DNA from: a virus
Strand: one strand, 5' to 3'
Length of the DNA: 32,270 nucleotides
Virus record (IMG/VR): IMGVR_UViG_3300033143_003264
Coordinates: 1 to 32,270 of that record
Positions 23,258-26,325 of the stretch are shown in pieces. A model generated the notes under the pieces. It did no database searches, was not told the DNA's origin, and was given only the letters and a program-made list of their open reading frames with translations. The number at the start of each line of letters is the position of its first letter. The stretch's first letter is position 1. The position numbers and the translations under genes were made by a program.

Positions 23258-25999
23258 TTAAATTTTCAAACTTTCTTTCTCTGCCCAATTAGTCGTGGTT
23301 CTCTTAACATCTATCCTAAACTTCAGCCCAACATCCATCAACTCCGCCACCTCACTCATTGCTTTTATAGTCTCCCGGCAAAACATTTTCTCATCCTTTC
23401 TGATATGCCGCTCTACCATCAATTCATCATACACCGGCAGAATAATCTTGGCATCTTTATACTTCCTCTCATACAATTCATCCACTTGCAGCAACCCCTG
23501 CTTGAACGCCTGGGCGCATCCTCCCTGAACAATAGCATTGACGGTCTTATAAGTCTGTCCATAAGGAACATGATAGCGACGACCAAAGTAATCCTGAACA
23601 TAGCCGTAAATCCCTAACTCATCTTTTAGTCGTTCTTGTAATTCCTGAATAAAAGGAAACTCACGATTGTAAATCTTCATCTCCTTTTTAGCCTGTTCGA
23701 TTGTCAGATTTTGTGAAGCGGCCATTGCCCTGATACCTAATCCATATATTACTCCGAAATTCTGATTTTTAATAATTTTCCTCTTATCCGGTCTACCAAG
23801 CAAATCGGCCATGTGTTGGTGTAAATCTTCACCATCCAGATACGCTTCAAGCATATCATTTGCACCAGCATAACTTAAAAACATAGCCATTTCCTGTTGA
23901 CTGACATCAAAGTAATAAATGGCCTTGCCATCTCTGGGAACAAAACAATCTCTAACGTGATTTTGCCTTCCACGTTGTTTAACATCCTGATTAGGAATAT
24001 TCAATAGATTTGGGTCTCTGCTATTATGTGAAAAGATACCACATTTCAGCAAGTAACTTGGGTTGTTTTCTATCATTAAGTCATATACTGGACGGCTTCC
24101 AGTAAATTTGATTTTCTTAATTGCTGCGAAAGACCGTCCTTCTGCTGCAAGCAATGTATAGTTGGATGTCCTTTGATTGTACACAGCACAAGATTGTCTA
24201 TATCGTTGTTCTTCGGATTGCCATCTATATGATGAACCATCCATCCTTTTGGTATTTTCTTTAGACCTAAATGTTTCATCATAATGACATGATGTAGAAA
24301 TCGCCTTTTTCCTTTGTGTAAAATAGTTAAATAACCATGCCCATCTTCGCAAATACCTTTGTAGTTTGGCATTCGTTTTCCACGTTTTCCATAATGAGGA
24401 TGTTTTGCTCCTTTCTTTGCATGTGACATCCTTATCCACTTTAATGCTTTGTATTCTTCTTTTGGTAAATGGTGGTTCACAACATAATGAACATTTTGAT
24501 ATGTGGTATAAAGTAATTCCGCTATTTCTTCTATTGTGTGGCAATTGGTCGATCTGTATAGACTTATCACATTGTTGATGTTTATTTTCTGTCTTGTCCA
24601 GTCTTTTGACACACTCATTTAATGTCTCCTTTATTGTTATCCACTTACCATTGTAAGCTAAAAATCTATGGTTATAGGTACATTTTATTTTACATCCAGT
24701 ATCAAGTGTTATTTCAAAAACTGGTCTGATTCCATTATACCATTTAGCCAAAACTTTTTCATAAGTTCCAATAGATGTCCTTACAATATGTCCAGGTGAT
24801 ACATTTTTTATGGGCTTAATTCCGTATGTAGTCCATATTTTTGTTAATTCATCCAAACAAGCTGGCCGTCCTGTCCTTGAATCGGTCGGGTTAATAGTTG
24901 TATAAACCGTCCCGCCTGTTCTTTCAGCCTGTTCGGTAAATGGTTTTAGATAGGTATTAGCCACCTTGCTATACGCCCTAAAGTCCAGCAACACTTTAAT
25001 AAATCGTTCCGCTCGCTTGGGCACACCATCTCTAACCGCCTGATTCAATGTATCAACGGCTGTAGTTTCTTTCCCTTTAACTTTAAGCTGTTTTGATTTG
25101 ACGCCTAAAAACCTCAATGCCGCTAAAATCTTTTTAGGCCCAAGCGTAAAATCAGGCGGCGACAATTCATCCAATATTCTTCTCTTTAACTTAATCTTGG
25201 GCAGTAACGCTTTCAATTCAGCCCGCCCTCTTTCAACATCAAAACCCATCCCCGCTTCTTCAATTTTCGTAATAACATGGGTAACAGCCATTTCTCTATC
25301 GAATATATCTGCGTATTCATCAATCATATAAGGTAATAATTTTTGAAGTAATTGCCAAACTACAAATCCATCCGTCATACTATATTCACCTATCATTTCA
25401 TCTGGTAGAAAACTATAATTAACGTATTCTTTCGGATCACCCGTCCAAGCGGGATTCCGCTCGTCTTTCCTCTTACTCCATTGCCTTCTTAATTTGGCCA
25501 ATTCTTTCTTTAAGTCCACCTCCCAATCGCTTATCCCCGGACAGATAAATTCGCTCAACGCCTGCAAACTATGGCTTTTCCTTCTGTCCCAGTATATCCG
25601 TGACATAGTAAGTGTACACAATTGAACACCATTAACCTCGATGTCATTCGTCTTACACACCCGCAAATCGTATTTTGAGTTATGCCACACCTTCATACAA
25701 TCACTGGCAAACACATCCATACAAGCTTTGTACAAATCAGTTCCATACCTCCCCCACACTAAAACTAATTGTCCACGATGAGGAAAGGCAAGGGTAAGAC
25801 CAAATGGAAATGGATTGTCAACTATTCTATCGTGGTCATCATGCAATATACTGGGGCGATGAAACAGCAAGCCAGTTGTTTCAGTGTCCAAACAGACGAT
25901 TTCTTTCTTTTTCTTTAGTAACAATCTGCTCTGTTTGTCATAAGACCAAATCCTTATTGCATTTTTGTGTTGTTTGAGTATATTATTATATTCATTCAT
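23258..25999 (-). CDS. Family A DNA polymerase with an embedded intein (913 codons; 634 aa after splicing)
   Basis: The start overlaps the upstream HNH stop (ATGA). The 3'-5' exonuclease motifs are LDTETTG (Asp38, Glu40), WHNSKYD (Asn107, Asp111) and YSMTD (Tyr206, Asp210). Polymerase motif A is DVSQQE (Asp698), motif B is RKIIKNQNFGVIYG (Lys744, Phe748 at the position of E. coli Phe762) and motif C is VYDE (Tyr857-Asp858-Glu859, where most family members have HDE). The conserved TGRxxSRDPNLLNIP region is interrupted between Ala380 and Ser660 by a 279-residue intein. Splicing would restore TGRPA-SRDPNLLNIP. It is the likely replicative polymerase; no 5' nuclease domain is present. No tyrosine or leucine replaces Phe748. 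Confidence 0.95.
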   Translation of the reverse strand: MNEYNNILKQHKNAIRIWSYDKQSRLLLKKKKEIVCLDTETTGLLFHRPSILHDDHDRIVDNPFPFGLTLAFPHRGQLVLVWGRYGTDLYKACMDVFASDCMKVWHNSKYDLRVCKTNDIEVNGVQLCTLTMSRIYWDRRKSHSLQALSEFICPGISDWEVDLKKELAKLRRQWSKRKDERNPAWTGDPKEYVNYSFLPDEMIGEYSMTDGFVVWQLLQKLLPYMIDEYADIFDREMAVTHVITKIEEAGMGFDVERGRAELKALLPKIKLKRRILDELSPPDFTLGPKKILAALRFLGVKSKQLKVKGKETTAVDTLNQAVRDGVPKRAERFIKVLLDFRAYSKVANTYLKPFTEQAERTGGTVYTTINPTDSRTGRPACLDELTKIWTTYGIKPIKNVSPGHIVRTSIGTYEKVLAKWYNGIRPVFEITLDTGCKIKCTYNHRFLAYNGKWITIKETLNECVKRLDKTENKHQQCDKSIQIDQLPHNRRNSGITLYHISKCSLCCEPPFTKRRIQSIKVDKDVTCKERSKTSSLWKTWKTNAKLQRYLRRWAWLFNYFTQRKKAISTSCHYDETFRSKENTKRMDGSSYRWQSEEQRYRQSCAVYNQRTSNYTLLAAEGRSFAAIKKIKFTGSRPVYDLMIENNPSYLLKCGIFSHNSRDPNLLNIPNQDVKQRGRQNHVRDCFVPRDGKAIYYFDVSQQEMAMFLSYAGANDMLEAYLDGEDLHQHMADLLGRPDKRKIIKNQNFGVIYGLGIRAMAASQNLTIEQAKKEMKIYNREFPFIQELQERLKDELGIYGYVQDYFGRRYHVPYGQTYKTVNAIVQGGCAQAFKQGLLQVDELYERKYKDAKIILPVYDELMVERHIRKDEKMFCRETIKAMSEVAELMDVGLKFRIDVKRTTTNWAEKESLKI
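24076..24618 (-). CDS. HNH endonuclease gene nested out of frame inside the intein (180 aa)
   Basis: The ATG at 24616-24618 has a strong SD, AAAGGAGA (24625-24632), with 7 bases between GGAG and ATG. The frame is shifted by one base from the polymerase frame. An N-terminal HTH-like part (TIEEIAELLYTTYQNVHYVV) is followed by basic linkers and an HNH core: RFLHHVIMMKHLGLKKIP, GWMVHHIDGNPKNNDIDN, LVLCT. The stop (24076-24078) lies inside codons for intein block F. The polymerase frame stays open across all 181 codons. The enzyme presumably promotes homing of the intein; its target and activity are unknown. It is a separate polypeptide, unlike usual intein endonucleases, which are fused in frame. 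Confidence 0.9.
   Translation of the reverse strand: MSVSKDWTRQKININNVISLYRSTNCHTIEEIAELLYTTYQNVHYVVNHHLPKEEYKALKWIRMSHAKKGAKHPHYGKRGKRMPNYKGICEDGHGYLTILHKGKRRFLHHVIMMKHLGLKKIPKGWMVHHIDGNPKNNDIDNLVLCTIKGHPTIHCLQQKDGLSQQLRKSNLLEAVQYMT
24625..24632 (-). promoter_or_regulatory. Internal ribosome binding site of the nested HNH gene
   Basis: AAAGGAGA on the - strand lies within intein codons for Lys-Glu (in ITIKETLN). The 7-base gap to ATG 24618 is optimal. It is the main reason to believe that the nested frame is translated on its own and not by frameshifting. Confidence 0.85.
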
Positions 26000-26325
26000 A
26001 ATGCGTAATGATTAACAAATCGGCCTTTCTTATCTCTATCCTGTGCATTGTCTAATGCTGTGCCAAGAAAAAGATGACCAGGATTAACACACTTTGGATT
26101 ATCACATTTATGCAATACATATAATCCATCAGGGATAGGGCCGTTAAACAACATCCAAGATAAACGATGTGCCTTATGAGTAGTAGAACAATTACGACTT
26201 CCGTGACTTTCTCTTATCAAACCATAGCCGCTTGTATCCAAAGAAGCCAACCAATTCCAACACTTTCCTTTTGGTCGTTTGAATTTAGACCAAAAGCGAT
26301 CTACTAATGATTTTTTCTTTTTCAT
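25996..26325 (-). CDS. Free-standing HNH endonuclease next to the polymerase gene (109 aa)
   Basis: GAGGAA precedes the ATG, which lies directly after the upstream stop. The sequence reads CWNWLASLDTSGYGLI, then AHRLSWMLFNGPIPDG, then VLHKCDNPKCVNPGHLFLGTALDNAQDRDKKGR. H-K-C-D-N-P-x-C-x-N-P-x-H-L is the HNH core with its zinc-binding cysteines. The stop overlaps the polymerase start (ATGA). Free-standing enzymes of this kind often target the neighbouring gene of a related phage, so the polymerase gene is a natural candidate target. That is inference. It is distinct from the nested and the 19.4-kb HNH genes. Confidence 0.85.
   Translation of the reverse strand: MKKKKSLVDRFWSKFKRPKGKCWNWLASLDTSGYGLIRESHGSRNCSTTHKAHRLSWMLFNGPIPDGLYVLHKCDNPKCVNPGHLFLGTALDNAQDRDKKGRFVNHYAL

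Follow-up and report, generated by a model that had tools for sequence, protein, structure and literature searches.

An intein in a phage polA gene overlapped by an HNH endonuclease gene in a second reading frame, with related arrangements in other phage genes

Background

Fractured genes are those in which a free-standing endonuclease gene lies between the two halves of a split intein; stop codons separate the halves, and splicing proceeds in trans. The nearest published precedent for the locus described here is the hidden HNH of the ShiLan domain (Pacc40 insertion), an out-of-frame HNH in phage methylases that is accompanied by neither a splicing domain nor a ribosome-binding site (Arsenault et al. 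2025, PMC11855218). A further point of reference is I-PfoP3I of the Pf-WMP3 polA group I intron, an enzyme that nicks polA on its coding strand, 4 nt upstream of where the intron is inserted, and has a recognition site extending from -3 to +11 relative to the insertion point (PMC3428280). Searches of the open literature, in which some relevant older papers were not included, turned up no intein whose endonuclease is encoded out of frame, so that priority is not certain.

The window, which is the whole stretch of 32,270 nucleotides analysed here, contains a phage family A DNA polymerase gene interrupted by an intein whose interior overlaps an HNH gene in another frame. Very probably this is a dual-frame intein, a mobile element of composite make-up that also encodes a separately initiated HTH-HNH homing enzyme.

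Results

The polymerase gene and its intein

The polymerase gene and the parts of its intein are as follows (a slash marks a junction or insertion point throughout the text).

23258..25999, minus strand: family A DNA polymerase (PolA-like) ORF of 913 aa with an in-frame intein; the spliced product is predicted to have 634 aa
24860..25999, minus strand: N-extein, residues 1-380, last residues ..TGRPA
24023..24859, minus strand: intein, 279 aa, C1 to H278 N279 with Ser at +1, polymerase residues 381-659, identified by the empty site in relatives, Pfam and invariant residues
24596..24859, minus strand: N-terminal splicing half, intein residues 1-88, AF2 pLDDT about 90-95
24134..24595, minus strand: host-frame shadow linker, intein residues 89-242, predicted disordered (pLDDT <50), conserved about as the null model predicts, with little constraint except the absence of stops
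24023..24133, minus strand: C-terminal splicing half, intein residues 243-279, blocks F and G
23258..24022, minus strand: C-extein, S660 onward (SRDPNLLNIP..), stop included

The polymerase ORF is a run of 913 continuous codons and shows no break into separate halves as in a fractured gene or split intein. Residues 381-659 are missing from the polymerases of six close IMG/VR relatives (L001-L006), which possess the exact join GRPA/SRDPNLL or its equivalent. Because these empty alleles define both junctions, the intein is an exact insertion of 279 codons, and because such close relatives lack the element, the window makes its presence and absence visible but not its activity. The preliminary description of this DNA had placed a 279-residue intein at 24023-24859 and predicted a spliced polymerase of 634 residues; length and position are confirmed by the six empty alleles. 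It had also suggested that both frames be compared with intein and HNH families, and Pfam matches were obtained in the window to DNA_pol_A (3.8e-45), Intein_splicing (3.9e-11) and HNH_3 (3e-13).

The window intein begins with Cys, finishes with His-Asn and is followed by Ser. Its catalytic blocks are complete and are invariant in 16 homologues, the invariant residues in the alignment of 16 host-frame inteins being C1, T61, H64, D260, H278 and N279. In the AF2 model of the host-frame intein, pLDDT is about 90-95 for the greater part of residues 1-88 and 243-279, whereas residues 89-242 score below 50. The two ends are modelled as a Hint fold (pLDDT about 93), for which Foldseek returns NpuDnaE (4kl5, TM 0.76) and gp41-1. 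A different, second HNH_3 gene of 109 aa (25996-26325, minus strand) is located directly upstream of polA, overlaps its ATG by 4 bp and is probably a free-standing homing gene adjoining its target.

The nested HNH gene

The following features belong to the nested gene.

24076..24618, minus strand: nested HNH endonuclease gene, 180 aa plus TAA, in the +1 frame relative to the polymerase
24625..24632, minus strand: Shine-Dalgarno sequence AAAGGAGA of the nested gene, within intein codons K-E-T; an AGGAG-like motif is present upstream of most homologous starts
24418..24606, minus strand: helical HTH-like N-terminal part, HNH residues 5-67 (AF2 model; weak HTH_23 and Sigma70_r4 matches in homologues)
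24172..24300, minus strand: HNH_3 catalytic core, HNH residues 107-149, VHHIDGNPKNNDIDNL
24079..24144, minus strand: dual-coded tail, HNH residues 159-180 over intein block F, with host-frame constraint above the level forced by the HNH frame

The ORFs at 23258-25999 and 24076-24618 and the one-base shift between them were found as first described, the HNH start lying at +1 relative to the polymerase frame; the same phase is seen in all nested polA homologues, so that the endonuclease is not in the host frame. The Shine-Dalgarno sequence claimed for the nested gene was also verified: AAAGGAGA precedes the HNH ATG with 7 nt between GGAG and ATG, and the codon immediately 5' of this ATG in the HNH frame is TAA. 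Homologues share the motif (M/L/V)SVSK at the start and an AGGAG-like site, and the start is always situated just 3' of the N-terminal intein half. The Shine-Dalgarno sequence is weak or missing in a few members (L035, L043).

HNH_3 is detected in 17 of 17 HNH-frame members, and the catalytic residues are invariant across them. The AF2 model of the HNH protein (pLDDT 86) has a helical N-terminus, which, together with the HNH_3 match, agrees with the HTH-like part and HNH core proposed earlier. An HNH_3 motif and an N-terminal helical, putatively DNA-binding part are likewise combined in HNH homing endonucleases of the I-PfoP3I type. Foldseek comparison of the model gives a weak similarity to I-HmuI (E 0.08), and a PDB sequence search with the HNH protein returned nothing useful.

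Stop avoidance and constraint in the two frames

Expected stops were computed from the polymerase's own codon usage with the HNH protein held fixed. About 17 would be expected in the host frame under the window HNH protein, but there are none (P about 10^-11.7), against 18 in the third frame. In the +1 phase a host-frame stop is made by T before an AA, AG or GA codon. Such codon pairs number 0 of 860 in the 18 nested polA sequences (the polA dual-frame members after removal of near-duplicates), a pooled count that is not usable as a P value because the sequences are related, the P value being the window's own figure. Elsewhere in the same sequences 560 of 2385 codons (23%) end in T. In 53 control HNHs the proportions are 390/1259 (31%) in stop-making contexts versus 876/2543 (34%) in others. 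These observations support the maintenance of both frames, with the host frame held open by selection, as had been proposed; the window's stop avoidance is joined by about 20 homologous cases in the same phase.

Close pairs have too few differences for substitution rates per frame, and a synonymous-shuffle test was used in their place, in which the codons of the HNH frame were shuffled synonymously with host stops forbidden. In the core, host-frame identity is 0.217 versus 0.212 +/- 0.003 under the null; a small excess of similarity score (z 3.3) may be due to relatedness. In the last 22 codons, which cover intein block F, identity is 0.328 versus 0.180 (z = 10.6). From this test, about 150 codons are shadow and about 22 are truly dual-coded. 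Apart from the last 22 or so codons, conservation of the host-frame linker does not exceed what follows from the HNH frame, and its core, with a pLDDT below 50, thus has the shadow character attributed to it from the outset.

Recurrence in other phage polA genes

Approximately 20 distinct IMG/VR phage polA genes, most of them on metagenomic contigs, contain a homologous intein at the same site, a homologous +1 HNH and a stop-free host frame. A pattern combining the intein end with the polA motif (HN..DPNL[LQ]N.P) yielded ten contigs in IMG/VR, five of which have an HNH ORF nested at +1 within an open polA intein. A similarity search with the HNH is blind to the host frame, openness never having been a selection criterion; nearly all of its 24 best relatives (L032-L055 except L053) are nested at +1, and the host frame is free of stops throughout the matching region. 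Several stops are present in almost every distant HNH. Two further polA dual-frame members are L120 and L121. All of the polA inteins occupy one site, TGRxS/xxPNLQNIP. Direct IMG/VR searches with the window HNH or intein alone, whose 8-residue seeds are too specific, found no relatives, and the genome-contig and plasmid searches found no true member.

Several of these loci have peculiarities of their own. L034, L042 and L055 show an apparent second intein farther downstream, in the polymerase domain of polA. The dual-frame intein of L043 (host residues 395-640) is missing about 30 residues of block A from its N-terminal splicing half and may be inactive or have a different start. In the polA relative L002:5001-6908, the 'KFPKIILPVYDEL..' segment is displaced within the ORF, an apparent rearrangement that is possibly an assembly chimera. 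L007:4039-4554 is a truncated N-terminal polA fragment (residues 1-170) with an internal stop and many stops thereafter, and looks like a decayed or misassembled allele.

Mobility, decay and other alleles at the polA site

Distances between inteins are correlated with those between HNHs (Mantel r 0.68), also after removal of the polymerase (extein) component (partial r 0.61), while the partial correlation of intein with extein distances given HNH is 0.10. As the first correlation extends beyond the extein and the second hardly exists, intein and HNH travel as a unit. L045 and L048 differ at 1/852 intein positions versus 74/1857 extein positions (Fisher 2e-11), with zero differences within about 318 bp upstream and 545 bp downstream of the intein, a pattern as would be expected for a recent conversion (transfer) tract.

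Other alleles are found at the same polA site. L031 has a mini-intein of 155 residues whose +1 frame retains the C-terminal third of the HNH (..NPKNNALDNLAVVTRQGHKTVHFLQVKD..); it is a deletion product that has lost most of the HNH. In L039:2207-2749 the second His of HHID is changed to Arg, silently in the polymerase frame, and this endonuclease is possibly dying. L024 and L028, read by eye, possess in-frame HNH-like inteins. In L025 and L029 (reverse strand) polA is divided into two ORFs with split-intein halves; an unrelated gene of about 317 aa separates them in L025, and in L029 the two ORFs overlap with nothing intervening. Two fates had been suggested for the window element. A stable dual-coding form fits these data, and an intermediate on the way to a split intein is not supported, because the only decay product seen is the mini-intein L031, with its HNH mostly deleted.

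Relationship to HNH genes of polA group I introns

The closest non-nested relatives of the HNH are separate genes in cultured phages, located between two polA pieces in polA group I introns. This accords with the earlier claim of a homing gene of free-standing type, and invasion of a mini-intein by the HNH gene is a plausible direction of events. Readable polA breaks occur at TGRLSSSxP/N or TGRLSSSNPNL/Q, 12-18 nt downstream of the intein-equivalent site. One of these relatives is I-PfoP3I, whose nick aligns about 8 nt from that site. Since the intein would not split the I-PfoP3I recognition site, either the nested enzymes recognise a somewhat different sequence or the alleles that encode them may themselves be cut. 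The HNH tree is poorly resolved, with intein and intron HNHs intermixed and only the window's group of ten well supported, and it fits either one or several origins of nesting in polA. Rfam gave no match in the window or loci; it also missed the proven Pf-WMP3 intron (L114). Judged from the sequences, we infer that a single polA-targeting HNH lineage has been carried both by group I introns and by inteins, with almost identical insertion sites.

A second class in large-terminase inteins

Wider HNH scans identified large-terminase (TerL) inteins with an HNH nested in the +2 frame and zinc-finger-like Cys pairs. This class comprises 22 non-redundant contigs, several of which were called terminases by motif alone, Pfam having been checked on a subset. 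Loci of the class are listed here.

L104, L127, L128, L130, L136, L137, L140, L174, L179, L181, L184, L188 and others
L193 (NC_019930), L194 (OZ038341), L196 (OP947163)

In the 22 contigs, codons ending in TG or TA make up 0 of 1483 before A-starting codons, versus 151/1792 before C- or T-starting codons and 157/1209 before A-starting codons in controls. Equally, none of the 60 Met is followed by an A-starting codon, a combination unavoidable at the protein level in the +2 phase. A few members are weak individually, since their host frame could be open by chance with a probability of up to about 0.3. The class is present in the cultured Tetrasphaera phage TJE1 and Acinetobacter phage Highwayman and in the deposited genome LS06-2018-MD07, all three with terminase and intein Pfam matches and an unannotated HNH. 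Free-standing homologues of the TerL HNH adjoin terS/terL in BP10 and PAE1. The TerL class is apparently independent of the PolA class.

Discussion

Proposed mechanism and alternative explanations

Translation of the polymerase frame would give a precursor protein. Its Hint-type intein, made up of two well-formed halves and an unstructured shadow linker of about 150 residues, would then excise itself to leave the 634-residue polymerase. The internal Shine-Dalgarno sequence and ATG, one base out of step, would give a separate HTH-HNH homing endonuclease of the nicking type. This enzyme would cut intein-free polA near the conserved TGRxS/xxPNLQNIP, and the whole intein would be copied in. Selection on the polymerase would purge all stops from the shadow frame, which in the +1 phase takes only synonymous third-base changes. 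Architecture, empty sites, stop avoidance, recurrence, intein-HNH co-inheritance and the recent transfer tract of one related lineage appear from the sequences themselves; splicing, internal initiation and cleavage of the target are inferred steps.

The HNH protein might alternatively be made as a fusion, through a programmed frameshift from the N-terminal intein half into the HNH frame. The constant position of the HNH start right after that half offers a place for the shift, but the TAA before the window ATG, the mere 1-2 open codons there in L033 and L034, and the conserved (M/L/V)SVSK motif with its AGGAG-like site make this unlikely. It is somewhat less likely again that only one frame matters, either because the HNH ORF is a defunct remnant or because the host frame is open by chance; the HHID change of L039, synonymous in the host frame, and the loss of most of the HNH in L031 point that way, and the invariance of the catalytic residues in 17 members and the very small probability of an open host frame in the window alone argue against it.

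The residence of the nearest non-nested HNHs in polA group I introns could suggest that the insert is an RNA-level element of this kind, a group I intron with an HNH gene, and that protein splicing is absent. Hint blocks and fold are conserved, however, and no room is left for a ribozyme because HNH coding sequence and intein blocks fill the insert, with no spare non-coding sequence; the lack of an Rfam match says little either way, given the missed Pf-WMP3 intron. Such an element is highly improbable. Hardly credible is a sequencing or assembly error that split or shifted the intein of what is truly a classical fractured gene or in-frame endonuclease. The window record is metagenomic, and a split intein with another gene between its halves does exist at this site (L025), but the double open frame is found again in polA on about 20 distinct contigs, and finished phage genomes have it in TerL in the other phase. 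An error of this type, with a frameshift or stop separating the intein halves, had been considered in the preliminary description and is refuted by this recurrence.

Comparison with known systems

Given a dual-frame intein with its own homing enzyme, a homing gene can inhabit a splicing element unfused: the intein would provide invisibility and the overlapping gene mobility, and the host gene would police both through its ban on stops. Alongside in-frame endonuclease fusions and split inteins, dual-frame inteins probably represent a third, general way of building a mobile intein, with at least two independent origins (PolA HTH-HNH at +1 and TerL zinc-finger HNH at +2). They would be stable, mobile and widespread in phages, with a life cycle ending in mini-inteins and, at polA, one HNH lineage carried by two vehicles, group I introns and inteins, to nearly the same site. 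The long natural overlaps, shadow for the most part and dual-coded at the tail, are found across many distinct sequences. Because intein-free, dual-frame, in-frame, mini and split alleles share a single polA site, direct tests become possible of the homing cycle, of how overlapping genes evolve and of the exchange of endonucleases between introns and inteins. Annotation overlooks HNH genes within polA and terL, and cultured phages, Tetrasphaera phage TJE1 among them, are no exception.

Like the ShiLan/Pacc40 insertion, the window element is an open in-frame insert in a phage gene with an HNH in an alternate frame and a disjunct, apparently homing distribution (PMC11855218). ShiLan differs in its methylase host, in having no intein or intron splicing domain and no Shine-Dalgarno sequence, and in the retained loop proposed for it (PMC11855218); the present element has a Hint domain, a gene led by a Shine-Dalgarno sequence, a PolA host and a different HNH. 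An arrangement resembling that of ShiLan was observed at L103:2916-5099, where a C5-methylase lacking a Hint domain contains an HNH in the +2 frame. I-PfoP3I is a related HTH-HNH protein encoded by a separate gene, with its target in the same polA motif; unlike the nested enzyme, it is encoded by a self-splicing RNA intron and its gene does not overlap the host coding frame (PMC3428280). This intron lies 12 nt downstream of the intein-equivalent site. Classical inteins with in-frame endonucleases (L024, L028) share the Hint splicing domain, the insertion site and an HNH endonuclease; in them the endonuclease is translated in frame as a portion of the intein itself, and in the window it is not. 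Fractured genes, which L025 resembles, also have a separate endonuclease gene between intein halves, whereas the window frame is continuous and cis splicing is expected.
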